A stretch of 41,722 nucleotides of DNA from Myxococcales bacterium (GTDB lineage: Bacteria; Myxococcota; Myxococcia; Myxococcales; JAKAPL01). Below the pieces are notes generated by a model. It made no database searches. It was given only the letters and a program-made list of their open reading frames with translations, and was not told the DNA's origin. Both the position numbers and the translations under genes were made by a program. Below, one piece after another: positions 27,105 through 41,722 of the stretch (the stretch's first letter is position 1; every line of letters begins with the position of its first letter). The stretch is taken from the NCBI GenBank assembly GCA_021783235.1, contig JAJXUD010000037.1, positions 1-41,722 on the forward strand, in the 5' to 3' direction.

Positions 27105-27426
27105 CGCCTCGACGGGTTCGATGAGAGCCTCCACGGCTTCGACGAGAGGCTGAACGGGGTGCGAACCGAGGCTCTCGTCGGACCCATCGAGGCTCCAATC
27201 GAACCCGTGGAGGCTCTCATCGGACTGTGCAGAGCCACGAGCAACTCGTCCAGCCTCTCATCGAACCCGCGCAGGGCCACGGGCTACCCGTGCAGGCTCT
27301 AAACCAGCCCGTGCAGGGCCATTAGAAGTCGGATCAGGCTCTGTTCCTACCCGTTCCGTTCAGGCGCCGTTCCAACTCGATCAGCGGCTGCGGCAACCCG
27401 TCGAGGCGCCGTGACGCTCTGCGCAG
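27105..27426. repeat. Degenerate 21-bp tandem array, 15 units
   Basis: Fifteen successive units, twelve of them 21 bp and the others 24, 20 and 26 bp. Most end in CAG or GAG and continue with GCTC or GCC. Unit 7 contains ACGAG-CAA-CTCGT and unit 9 ACGGG-CTA-CCCGT: perfect 5-bp arms with 3-bp centres at the same position of the unit, differing by a compensated base pair. Read on the minus strand most units begin with a Leu codon (LVEAVEA, LIEPVEA, LDELLVA), but in-frame stops and frame breaks prevent a continuous protein. It overlaps the 3' end of the gene at 27334-27987. No gene is seen in 26956-27104. Confidence 0.8.
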
Positions 27427-27987
27427 CCGCACGGGCCAGCGGTCGTCGTCGACGTGCCCCTGGACGTGCTCGCCCACGTCGAGCTTCTCAGAGGAGCGCG
27501 GGCGACCTACCTCTCGAAGCCCCATCTCCACAGCCCGCTTGGGGTCGGGAGGCTTGGTCACGTCCGCGAGCCACAGCCCTTGCCGCTCGAGCCAGGGGCG
27601 AATCCTCACCTCCCGCTCCTCCCAGCCGAGGCAGCGGTCGACGTGCGGAGAGTCGCTCCAAACCCAGACTTCGAGCTCGGGCTCGATCACGACCACATCC
27701 GACCAGCCGTCCCCCCCGAGGCGCTCCCGGAGGCTCGCCTTCATTGCGGCGGCGTCATCAGACGCGCCATCCCACGCTCGATCAAGAACCACGAGCGCGT
27801 GCGAGTACGATGTCCGCTGGTCCCGCAGAAAATCGGGAGCCTCGCGAAAGCAACCTGGGTCCCGGCGAGGGTGAACCCAGATGTCCGCTTGCACCGGGCG
27901 AGTGTGAAGCGCCTCCGGGCGTTCCAGAAGGGCGCCGACCGTCGCCTCCATGTTCTTGTCGGCCACGAGGCACACCAGATCCTTCAT
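27334..27987 (-). CDS. MAD4/DUF4276-like defence-associated protein
   Basis: About 217 residues. The start ATG has GGAG 7 bases upstream and overlaps the TGA of the relic before it (ATGA, 27984-27987). Motifs are KDLVCLVADKNMEATVGALL, IWVHPRRDPGCF, YSHALVVLDRAWDG and VVVIEPELEVWVWSDSPHVD. The acidic residues in VADKNME, LDRAW and EPELEVWVW recall TOPRIM-like DUF4276 proteins and the MAD4 component of methylation-associated defence; the name is from memory. More codons end in T or A than in neighbours (CTT, GTT, TTT, GAT), consistent with transfer. The C-terminus runs into the 21-bp array and may be altered there. Confidence 0.6.
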   Translation of the reverse strand: MKDLVCLVADKNMEATVGALLERPEALHTRPVQADIWVHPRRDPGCFREAPDFLRDQRTSYSHALVVLDRAWDGASDDAAAMKASLRERLGGDGWSDVVVIEPELEVWVWSDSPHVDRCLGWEEREVRIRPWLERQGLWLADVTKPPDPKRAVEMGLREVGRPRSSEKLDVGEHVQGHVDDDRWPVRLRRASRRLDGLPQPLIELERRLNGTGRNRA

Positions 27988-28103
27988 CCGAGGACTCCAC
28001 TTGCGAACAGGGTCCCCAGATCGACCCCGCCCTTCCACCCCTTGAGACTCGGGTGTTCGTCGCCCCGCACGATGGCGGTGGCACCGTCAAGCCCACGGGC
28101 AAA
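27984..28103 (-). pseudogene. 3' relic of the gene that preceded the MAD4-like gene
   Basis: Forty codons ending in TGA, read as FARGLDGATAIVRGDEHP then SLKGWKGGVDLGTLFASGV. The stop shares ATGA with the next gene, a normal operon junction. The frame is open slightly further upstream but has no convincing start, and the codons there lose protein-like character. It looks like the C-terminus of a deleted partner. In MAD-type loci an AAA ATPase gene precedes MAD4, but this 39-residue piece cannot prove that identity. Confidence 0.5.
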
Positions 28104-38674: not shown

Positions 38675-40387
38675 TCAGCCCCCGCGCCGCCGCTCCCGGG
38701 CGCCCGGGAGCTCGACGAAGAAGGTGGAGCCGCTGCCGACCGCGCTCTCGACCCGAACCGTGCCGCCCGAGGCCTCCACGATCCGCCGGACGATCCAGAG
38801 CCCCAGGCCGAGCCCAGGGAAGCTGCGGACGCTCACGGCGCGCTCGAAGCGGCCGAAGAGCCGCTCGCGATCCTCCGGGGGGATCCCGATTCCCGAATCG
38901 GCGACGACGAGCTGCGCGCGATCTCCCAGCCGCCCGAGCGAAACACGCACCGGCCGCCCCTCCCCGTACTTCACCGCGTTGCCGACCAGGTTCGTCACCA
39001 GCTCATCGATCCGGAAGCCGTCCCAGTCGCCGAAGACCGGCTCCGGCGCATCGAGCACGAGCTCGCTCCCCCCAAACGGGGGCTCCCGGAAGCGCTGCAC
39101 GACCTCGGCGACGAGCTCGCGCAGGTCGAGCTCCCGCGGCTCGAGCCGTAGCGGGCCCCCCGCGAGGAGCTGCGAGACGTCGAGGAGCCTCGCCACCAGG
39201 CTCTGCAGCCGGTCGACCTGCCGCCGTGCCGACAGCAGGCGCTCTTCGATCTGCCCGGGGGTGCCCTTCTGGCGGCGCGCCAGCTCCACCTGGATCTTGA
39301 GGGCCGTCAGCGGCGTGTTCAGCTCATGGGAGGCGATCGTCAGGAACTCGTCGCGCGCCGCCACCGCCTCCTGGAGCCGGTTGCGCGCCTCGGCGAGCTC
39401 GCGGAACAGCCTCGCGTTGTCCACGGCCAGGGCCGCCCGCGCCGCAAGCTCCTGCGCCCGAACCAGCTCCTTCGGCCCGTAGCGCCTCTCCCCGCCGGAG
39501 ATCATGAACGACAGGACGCCGATCGTCCTGCCCCGCGCCACCAGGGGGACGACCATCGCCGAGGCGACGCCGAGCCGCTCGAGCGCATCGAGGTGCGCGG
39601 GAGACTGCGCCAGCCGCGCCAGATCGGCGTGCGTCACCTCCGGGATCAGCCGTGGCTCGGCCGCCAGGTCGACCCGCGCCGCCTCCGGGCGATGCTCGGT
39701 GGGCGGGAAGCTCTCCGCGTACAGCCGCGCCAGATCGGCCTTTGCCGGATCCGCGTGGTAGACCGCCGTCCGCCGCATCGCCCCGCCCTCTCGCGAGGCG
39801 ACGGTGCACCAGTCGGCGATCCGCGGCACGGCGAGTCGGCCGATCCGGCGCAGGGTCTCGTCGAGGTCGAGCGACTCCCCGAGGAGGCGGGCCGCCTCGG
39901 CGAGGAAGGTCGCCCACTCGAGCGCCTCGCGATCGGCCGCGCGCAGGACGGTGAAGGTCTCGCCCACGGCCGCGGCCTCCCGAACCGCCGCCTGCAGCCC
40001 CGTGGCCGTCTGCCAGACGAGGAGGAGCGCGAGCAGCGCGAAGGCGGCCAGGCTCGCGGCGAGCAACGCCCGCCCCGGGGCGCCGAGCAGCTCGACCGAC
40101 CGACCCGAGGCGATGCCCACGGCGCCCACGAAGAGCGCCGCCGCGAGGGTGGCCGCGCCGAGGAGCCGGAGGCGGCGCCTCGAGACGTGCGGCAGCGAGA
40201 GGAGCGGCGCGAGCAGGGAGCAGAGCAGGAGCGCCGGAAAGAGCGGCGGCGCGAGGAGCACGGCGCCGCAGACGAAGGCCAGCGCCGCGAGCGACGCGGC
40301 GGTGGCCAGCGCCGCGAGCGGCGAGCGGCCGACGGCCAAGTCGAGCACGAAAGTGGCCAGCTCGACCGCCCCGAGGAGAAGGGCCAC
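38675..40387 (-). CDS. Membrane-bound GAF histidine kinase; true start probably further upstream
   Basis: 570 residues from the first usual start (GTG). Order: several membrane helices (1-130), GAF domain (about 155-330), HisKA with SHELNTPLTALK (His354), and HATPase with NLVGNAVKYGEG, DSGIGIPPEDRERLFGRFER and GLGLGLWIV. It would sense a ligand through GAF or membrane and autophosphorylate. The same frame stays protein-like for another 58 codons, adding a further membrane helix (AVGLAFGAVYLALGWSGS) before a TAA at 40613-40615, with no ATG, GTG or TTG. Possible starts are ACG at 40561 (AAGGGG 6 bases upstream) or CTG at 40501 or 40474. No response regulator is adjacent. Confidence 0.87.
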   Translation of the reverse strand: MALLLGAVELATFVLDLAVGRSPLAALATAASLAALAFVCGAVLLAPPLFPALLLCSLLAPLLSLPHVSRRRLRLLGAATLAAALFVGAVGIASGRSVELLGAPGRALLAASLAAFALLALLLVWQTATGLQAAVREAAAVGETFTVLRAADREALEWATFLAEAARLLGESLDLDETLRRIGRLAVPRIADWCTVASREGGAMRRTAVYHADPAKADLARLYAESFPPTEHRPEAARVDLAAEPRLIPEVTHADLARLAQSPAHLDALERLGVASAMVVPLVARGRTIGVLSFMISGGERRYGPKELVRAQELAARAALAVDNARLFRELAEARNRLQEAVAARDEFLTIASHELNTPLTALKIQVELARRQKGTPGQIEERLLSARRQVDRLQSLVARLLDVSQLLAGGPLRLEPRELDLRELVAEVVQRFREPPFGGSELVLDAPEPVFGDWDGFRIDELVTNLVGNAVKYGEGRPVRVSLGRLGDRAQLVVADSGIGIPPEDRERLFGRFERAVSVRSFPGLGLGLWIVRRIVEASGGTVRVESAVGSGSTFFVELPGARERRRGG

Positions 40388-40682
40388 GGCGACGAGCCGC
40401 CGCTCGGAGCCGCTCCAGCCGAGCGCGAGGTAGACCGCGCCGAACGCCAGGCCGACGGCCTGGGTCGCGCGCAGGAAGCGCCGGAACTGCCGCCGCCCCA
40501 GCTCCTCCCCGGGCCCGTCGGGCCGCCGGTCGCCTTTGGCGCTCTTCGAAACGGAATCCGTGGACGTCCCCTTGGCCGCTCGATCTCCCCGGTTCGAGCG
40601 AAAGCCCCGAGGTTATCACCTGGGCGGAGGCGGCTCCAGGCGAGACTGGCGCGCCGCCAGGGCGACGGACAAAGTCAGCTTT

Positions 40683-41018
40683 CCGCCCGTGGTCGGCGAC
40701 CATGCGCCCGTGGTCGGCGACCATGCGCCCGTGGTCGGCGACCATGCGCCAATGGTCCACGACCATGCGCCAATGGTCCACGACCATGCGCCAGTGGTCG
40801 GCGACCATGCGCCAATGGTCGGCGACCATGCGCCAGTGGTCGGCGACCATGCGCCAGTGGTCCACGACCATGCGCCAGTGGTCCACGACCATGCGCCAGT
40901 GGTCCACGACCATGCGCCAGTGGTCCACGACCATGCGCCCGTGGTCGGCGACTACGCGCCAGTGGTCGGCGACCATGCGCCAGTGCTCCACGACCGCGCG
41001 CCCGTGGTCGGCGACCGC
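40683..41018. repeat. Sixteen-unit 21-bp array, each unit holding a small palindrome
   Basis: Sixteen contiguous units of exactly 21 bp with a partial unit after them (to about 41036). Nearly every unit has the arms TGGTC and GACCA around a 3-bp centre that is either GGC or CAC, separated by an 8-bp spacer T-GCGCC-(CG/AG/AA). Units 4, 5 and 7 have 6-bp arms. The two centre types occur in runs (units 1-3 GGC, 4-5 CAC, 6-8 GGC, 9-12 CAC), so multi-unit blocks have probably duplicated. All frames stay open simply because 21 is divisible by three. It is unlike CRISPR: there are no unique spacers. Confidence 0.92.
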
Positions 41019-41143
41019 GCTCGTCGGCGACATCGCAACCCCTCGCGATCACAGGACGAAACGCTCCTTCGCAGAAAGTTGCCGCGCTTTTCGATCTTCC
41101 TGGCCCCTGTATCCATGAAGGCCGCAACAGAAGGCCGTGGCAG

Positions 41144-41200
41144 TCCAGGGCGCCGGAATGGGTCTTCAGCCGGGCAAGTCGAGTCGGCCGGCGCCCTGGA
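41144..41200 (+). repeat. 13-bp inverted repeat in the leader of the last gene
   Basis: TCCAGGGCGCCGG (41144-41156) and CCGGCGCCCTGGA (41188-41200) are exact complements with a 31-base loop. The structure ends 13 bases before the AAGGAG ribosome-binding site (41214-41219) of the gene at 41227. No T-run follows, so it is not an obvious attenuator. It may be an operator or a regulatory RNA hairpin. Confidence 0.6.
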
Positions 41201-41226
41201 TCAGGTACGGAGAAAGGAGAAAAACC

Positions 41227-41722
41227 ATGAACGGATTCAACAAGAAGGACGAGAAGGCGAAGCTCACCGCGGTCGTCAACGGGATTCACACGCTGCTCCC
41301 CGCGACCTCCCAGGTGACTCTGCTCGGGAAGGCTCTGCTGCCAGCACAACTGGCGCAGCTCTTCGAAGCGGCTCTGACGGCATTCAACGCCGTCACCGAC
41401 GCCAAGGCGGCGTACCAGGGCGCAGTACAGGCCCAGGATGCGTCGTACCAGGCAGCCCGACCGTTCTACCTGGCTCTGGAAAAGTACCTCCAGGCCTCGT
41501 TGGGCGAGGGTAACCCCATCCTCGGACAGTTCGGGTTCAGCACGGCTCAACGCCACGCACCGACCGCGGAGACCAAGGCGGCGGCAGCGGCGCGAGCCAA
41601 GCTGACCAAGAAGGTCCACGGCACCGACAAGGGGAAGCGCCAGAAGCTGGCGATCACCCCGGGTGGCAAGGGTGGGCTGGTCTACGTCGAGCCAGACGGC
41701 AAGCAGGTCCCGGGGTTGACCC
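41227..41722 (+). CDS. Uncharacterised cytoplasmic protein, cut by the window end
   Basis: 165 codons are visible and the frame is still open at the edge. AAGGAG (41214-41219) stands 7 bases before the ATG, one of the best ribosome-binding sites in the window. The sequence has a helical N-terminal part (DEKAKLTAVVNGIHTLLP, LAQLFEAALTAFNAVTDAKA), the segment ILGQFGFSTAQRHAP, and a basic Lys-rich part (AKLTKKVHGTDKGKRQKLAI). It resembles unnamed proteins of proteobacteria and planctomycetes with the same FGF...K-rich order; no function is known. Its codons are less GC-biased than the surrounding genes, and it follows the 21-bp array and a hairpin leader, so it may be acquired. Confidence 0.72.
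   Translation, partial: MNGFNKKDEKAKLTAVVNGIHTLLPATSQVTLLGKALLPAQLAQLFEAALTAFNAVTDAKAAYQGAVQAQDASYQAARPFYLALEKYLQASLGEGNPILGQFGFSTAQRHAPTAETKAAAAARAKLTKKVHGTDKGKRQKLAITPGGKGGLVYVEPDGKQVPGLT

Follow-up and report, generated by a model that had tools for sequence, protein, structure and literature searches.

A 21-bp repeat lattice with predicted protein-binding sites upstream of an uncharacterised gene family in Myxococcales

What might a row of short DNA units set exactly 21 bp apart be for, and is it tied to the gene beside it? The question is raised by a tandem array in the window (the whole stretch of 41,722 nucleotides analysed here, which is the entire contig C123 of a 4.58-Mb Myxococcales genome in 133 contigs). 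The array stands between a GAF/HisKA/HATPase sensor kinase gene with a strong codon pattern (38675-40387) and a gene truncated by the contig end (Table 1).

The window array and the element that carries it

Tandem Repeats Finder placed the array at 40684-41016, with a period of 21, 15.9 copies, 91% matches and a score of 477, the highest of all arrays in the window. The original prediction described sixteen palindromic sites spaced by 21 bp; the sixteen units and their period were confirmed, whereas only 13 of them, read in register, hold a perfect TGGTC-N3-GACCA, the imperfect ones being units 14 to 16 (GACTA; TGCTC..GACCG; GACCG). The same reading in register reproduced the blockwise alternation of unit centres between GGC and CAC. 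The palindrome itself, frequent as it is, barely outperforms shuffled versions of the unit (p=0.08) and is not what related arrays have in common. The genome-wide look for TGGTC-N3-GACCA arrays that had been proposed returned five of the window type (C123, which is the window, C47, C117, C125 and C131), so that the window array is not unique; outside arrays the motif is nearly absent, with about 17 scattered singletons. Another array, noted earlier at 27.1 kb for its similar geometry, turned out to be a true 21/42-bp lattice, although decayed and lacking a neighbouring family gene. It adjoins the 3' end of the gene 27334-28038 (- strand), for whose protein (MKDLVCLVADKNMEATVGALLER..) Pfam gave no match.

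Table 1. Coordinates of the features described in the window
Feature	Position	Strand	Remark
Decayed second 21/42-bp lattice	27108..27366 (about)	.	No family gene adjoining
Left terminal inverted repeat of the array element, CAGGGCGACGGACAAAGTC	40658..40676	+	Copies elsewhere in the genome
21-bp array of 16 units (unit CGCCAGTGGTCGGCGACCATG)	40684..41019	.	Extra decayed unit at 41020-41030
Promoter-like block TTGCCGCGCTTTTCG..TATCCATGAAGG, conserved	41078..41121	+	From leader alignment; directly downstream of the array
Structured 5' leader RNA	41116..41212	+	Long hairpin, arms 41143-41156 / 41188-41201
Internal end-like sequence GCCGGCGCCCTG	41187..41198	+	Serves the short C131 copy as right end
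Shine-Dalgarno region GGAGAAAGGAG	41209..41219	+	AAGGAG-type site at most paralogs
Family gene, ~185 aa judged by the C47 relative	41227..41722	+	Cut by contig end

The window-type arrays ride on an element with inverted ends. Exact copies of the left terminal inverted repeat were found in C125 and C131 and near copies in C47, C83, C7, C72, C109 and C128, while a reversed control pattern gave 0 matches; the long copies close on the right with GACTTTGCCGAGGCCCTG, which matches this repeat imperfectly in inverse orientation. The copies in C123, C131 and C47 open with CAGG(G/A)CGACGGACAAAGTC shortly ahead of the array, and C125 has a related left end further upstream of its array. On the 3' side of the array, about 165 bp are conserved and are followed by a whole or partial gene in C123, C47 and C117. 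Internal deletions occur among the copies. The C47 copy ends in GACTTTGCCGAGGCCCTG and has GGGGGCTCAG on either flank, and the C131 copy, gene-less and 463 bp long (CAGGGCG...CGCCCTG), ends in the internal end-like sequence and has GGGGTCGATTG on either flank; these flanks are apparent target duplications of 10-11 bp. The window copy stops at the contig end, so that no right end is visible for it. Besides, a piece of about 345 bp at C125:737-1080 (L031) combines the left end with the long-form right end around no array, and is apparently an internal deletion copy of the element.

The window-type copies are, in structural terms, non-autonomous inverted-repeat elements, since they have inverted ends and, in C47 and C131, apparent flanking duplications. 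This, in line with the original prediction of a possibly acquired gene, places a member of a multi-copy family on a mobile-type unit. The window type resembles MITEs and mobile insertion cassettes by its ends (CAGGGCG..), by the apparent 10-11 bp duplications in C131 and C47, by its several copies and by their internal deletions; it departs from them in that such ends came to light in window-type copies only and that no mobilising transposase was found in the assembly. The mobiliser is probably a multi-copy element with like ends, CAGGGCG(A/C)CGGACAAAGTC, which breaks the contigs C7, C72, C109 and C128 at their ends and also occurs at C83:16975-17098; its body and transposase are missing from the assembly. 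An ISAs1 transposase was considered for this role and rejected, PF13808 being absent from the genome.

The adjacent gene family and the period of its upstream arrays

The gene beside the window array has about 30 tblastn matches in its own genome. The family proteins measure about 150-230 aa and, as judged by pattern and alignment, are mostly helical with a low-complexity tail and a conserved basic motif, TxExKAxAAAKxxxTRxxRGTxGKxQK. No usable match was obtained in Pfam, NCBIfam, PHROGs, PADLOC or PDB, no DNA-binding fold was recognisable, and an AlphaFold model of the truncated window protein from its single sequence was poor (pLDDT 56). In a phylum-wide survey, members occurred in 5 of 195 genomes (G000, G099, G160, G105 and G114), all from one order; a scan of genome contigs added one family locus, in a metagenome-assembled genome that is apparently the same as G160, and plasmids, phages and IMG/VR held no relative of the members queried. 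Judged by these comparisons, the family is abundant and uncharacterised, and unmatched in the libraries searched. Its loci have no recurrent or conserved neighbour gene. An upstream gene is common to L103, L155 and L173, three family loci without clear lattices.

The arrays upstream of these genes are defined by their period. In four genomes, 28 arrays reach a length of 126 bp or more; all 28 have a period of 21 or 42, none has a period of 20 or 22, and identity at other lags stays at or below 0.50. By one fixed rule, an upstream array of period 21, 42 or 63 was called at 37 of 60 family loci (G000, 16/27; G099, 5/7; G160, 12/17; G105, 3/7; G114, 1/2), as against 0.25-2.8% of random windows (34/1200 in G000, 2/800 in G105 and 7/800 in G036, which lacks the family), and the control periods 19, 20, 22 and 23 scored 0-1 by the same rule; the period thresholds, like the palindrome test below, are our own choices, and fragmented assembly may have shortened some arrays. 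A lattice is undetectable at about 40% of the family genes. Each unit sequence belongs to a single locus or a small group of loci, and most units are unrelated by BLAST; in a by-eye alignment, the window and C112, whose proteins are 72% identical, have part of the unit in common (GCGACC...GCG). Taken over 20 arrays, palindromic cores are more frequent than expected (Fisher p 1e-3), and arrays without any palindrome are found in C112, C25, L130, L134 and C41. The exact period, and not the palindrome, is the invariant feature across related arrays. The lattices matched nothing in the libraries searched, and literature on 21-bp phased arrays in myxobacteria and kindred topics offered nothing relevant.

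A unit made of an array, a promoter-like block, a leader, a ribosome-binding site and the gene recurs in the five related genomes. At the place of the window's promoter-like block, other loci carry a TGTCACGCTTTTCG block or a sigma54-type site (TGGCAC-N5-TGC); the latter lies between array and gene at about a dozen paralogous loci and is not present in the window (p 0.89). Near-consensus sigma54-type sites were recorded upstream of family genes in G105 (L113, L118, L122, L131, L136), G099 (L121, L124, L130), G000 (L106) and G160 (L145, L174, L180, L181). The window leader folds with a z score of -2.55, and compensatory changes among seven leaders support 9 of 24 consensus pairs; in Rfam, the searched loci gave no leader match and array loci only sub-threshold ones. 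The covarying long-hairpin leader was seen at L090 (C112), L092 (C85), L100 (C39), L105 (C71), L112 and L117 (both in G099), as well as in the window. Most family members have a strong Shine-Dalgarno sequence, the context of which was used to set some of the gene starts.

Decayed and gene-less lattices

In the decayed arrays, all that is left is a motif of about 7 bp, repeated at exact 21-bp intervals over as many as 45 positions, while the spacers are randomised. In L176 (G160), CGGGGCA with one mismatch allowed has 33 matches, 29 of which fall in a single phase modulo 21, and the grid spans 45 consecutive positions. Identity is 0.46 at a lag of 21x30 and 0.50 at 21x1, against about 0.31 off phase; this array is unlike a plain duplication because similarity does not fade with distance. 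The same holds for L113 and L182, and some decay with distance is seen in L170 and L175. Codon bias might mimic a weak 21-bp signal, since 21 is divisible by 3; the off-phase lags 3, 6 and 9 stay at background in most arrays, L150 excepted. At 10.5 bp per turn, 21 bp make two turns of the helix and 42 bp make four. A spacing that is kept while the spacer sequence is lost is what phased protein-binding sites would predict, and it suggests that selection acts on helical phase and outlasts the sequence itself.

Lattices number in the dozens in the window's genome, many of them next to a family gene, but they also exist without it. A scan of 1.23 Mb of G000 gave 38 tandem regions; 21 of these have a period of 21, 42 or 63, many of them with no family gene, against 1 of 16 in 0.4 Mb of G105 and none in 0.4 Mb of G036. 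In the quarter of the genome scanned, 4 of 13 gene-less lattices resemble a gene-linked type (L191 and L185, 89% over 600 bp; L189 and L096-L097; L201 and L099; L214 and L184), so that several lattice types exist both next to the gene and as further copies apart from it; the other nine have no match among the gene-linked types examined. Two gene-less 21/42 lattices, L241:15074-15796 and L243:19376-20000, are 72% alike, and a gene-linked relative was not found for them. Conversely, the leader and gene of L102 are 95% identical to those of L101, yet L102 has no lattice, and this locus together with the lattice-free share of the family indicates that the gene can do without a lattice. Lattice and gene are separable modules. 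Sister loci (L096/L097, L098/L099) differ in both copy number and unit sequence, and lattices evolve more quickly than genes.

What the lattices might be

On this sequence evidence, we lean towards reading the array as a helically phased lattice of predicted sites for a cooperatively assembling, sequence-specific DNA-binding protein, set directly ahead of the promoter that serves the gene for a small, uncharacterised helical protein. With all sites facing the same side of the helix, protomers could touch and polymerise, as they do at plasmid iterons or ParR/parC, and the resulting nucleoprotein patch could control the adjacent gene and perhaps group lattices of the same type. Most speculatively, the binder would be the product of the adjacent gene or a coevolving partner, each paralog having its own address sequence. 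The adjacent gene product is our favoured candidate for the lattice binder, which would require rapid coevolution since lattices outpace genes; common descent of the lattices would explain part of the common period. A broader scheme, possible but doubtful, is a paralog-specific address system in which each family protein would recognise its own lattice of two-turn pitch, the dispersed gene-less lattices being other targets, with dozens of mutually blind pairs per genome. If the neighbours do bind, one genome would naturally contain many protein-DNA lattice pairs orthogonal to one another, and these could serve to study the evolution of specificity and the organisation of chromosomes by arrays. 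Whether or not there is cognate binding, an abundant unnamed gene family is tied to a defined cis element.

Phased protein sites of an iteron-like or centromere-like kind were among the four options first offered for the array, and they are the best supported of these, although the partner genes of either system are lacking. Plasmid iterons adjoin rep genes, and those of RK2, P1, F, R6K and pPS10 (17-22 bp, Rep-bound) resemble the lattices as direct repeats near two turns with repeated sites; the lattices differ in being chromosomal, in reaching 45 units and in having sequences private to many loci. As for a Rep initiator with winged-helix domains, the adjacent gene is unmatched in Pfam, NCBIfam, PHROG and PDB. 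Some 30 gene copies and the gene-less lattices are spread over many contigs, and no paralog matched a plasmid or phage, which does not correspond to a plasmid-type replicon. Having neither Rep nor replicon, the lattice is not an iteron origin. Shifting iterons by half a helical turn relative to one another abolishes their cooperativity (PMC4980987), and each ParR family binds its own parC direct repeats (PMC9426499). ParR/parC systems (R1, pSK41, C. perfringens) are like the lattices in having direct repeats upstream of a gene, of 20 bp in pSK41, with sequences proper to each family; unlike them, the lattices belong to chromosomal, multi-copy, single-gene units in which no ParM, ParA or ParR homologue was recognised. 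No ParMRC or ParABS partner gene emerged either, the loci having no recurrent neighbour and the gene itself being unmatched. The lattice is therefore not a Par centromere, and its site geometry is like that of iterons and Par centromeres.

The main rival, which we regard as unlikely, takes the lattice for an enhancer whose many sites bind an activator of the adjacent gene (e.g., a sigma54 enhancer-binding protein), with regulators that differ from lattice to lattice and a gene product that does not bind. Lattices do lie upstream of promoter-like blocks, and at about a dozen loci upstream of TGGCAC-N5-TGC, as sigma54 upstream activating sequences do and as such promoters, which need upstream activators, would demand; this applies to only part of the family, other lattices lacking such promoters. 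However, 10 to 45 sites are far above the usual number for an activator, the sequences are private to their loci so that a separate activator would be needed for each, TGGTC-N3-GACCA is scarce outside arrays, and many G000 lattices have no family gene, one of them being located between convergent genes.

More improbable still is a neutral or selfish minisatellite, spread by a mobile element and unequal exchange, in which the period would be inherited and the units homogenised locally. The variation between sister loci, the missing array of L102, the array-only copy L191 and the window-type element with its inverted ends and target duplications would suit it, and bacterial minisatellites and VNTRs are likewise tandem and variable in copy number. 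In the lattices, though, the period is locked at 21/42 rather than drifting with the unit sequence, and the grid outlives that sequence: a short motif stays on an exact 21-bp grid for up to 45 positions between random spacers, similarity in the clearest decayed arrays is independent of distance, periods of 20 or 22 do not occur among the 28 arrays, and away from family loci G105 has few such lattices, the scanned 0.4 Mb of G036 having none. The neutral minisatellite, named in the original prediction as one of two findings that would speak against functional sites, thus fits poorly.

Another of the original options, a row of small transcribed RNA hairpins, one per unit, is very improbable: the enriched palindromic cores would agree with it, but several arrays have no palindrome, the covarying leader RNA begins downstream of the array, and hairpins would give no reason to expect an exact 21-bp grid. 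Finally, translation of the array as a heptapeptide-repeat protein or N-terminal extension, the other such finding, can practically be discounted despite the divisibility of 21 by 3 and the open frames of several arrays (e.g., the - strand ORF 39324-41033 of the window), because a codon-position effect is seen in 0 of 28 arrays (lowest p 0.11), the old array L176 has stop codons in all six frames, and the ORF overlaps, in another frame, the sensor kinase gene with its much stronger codon pattern.
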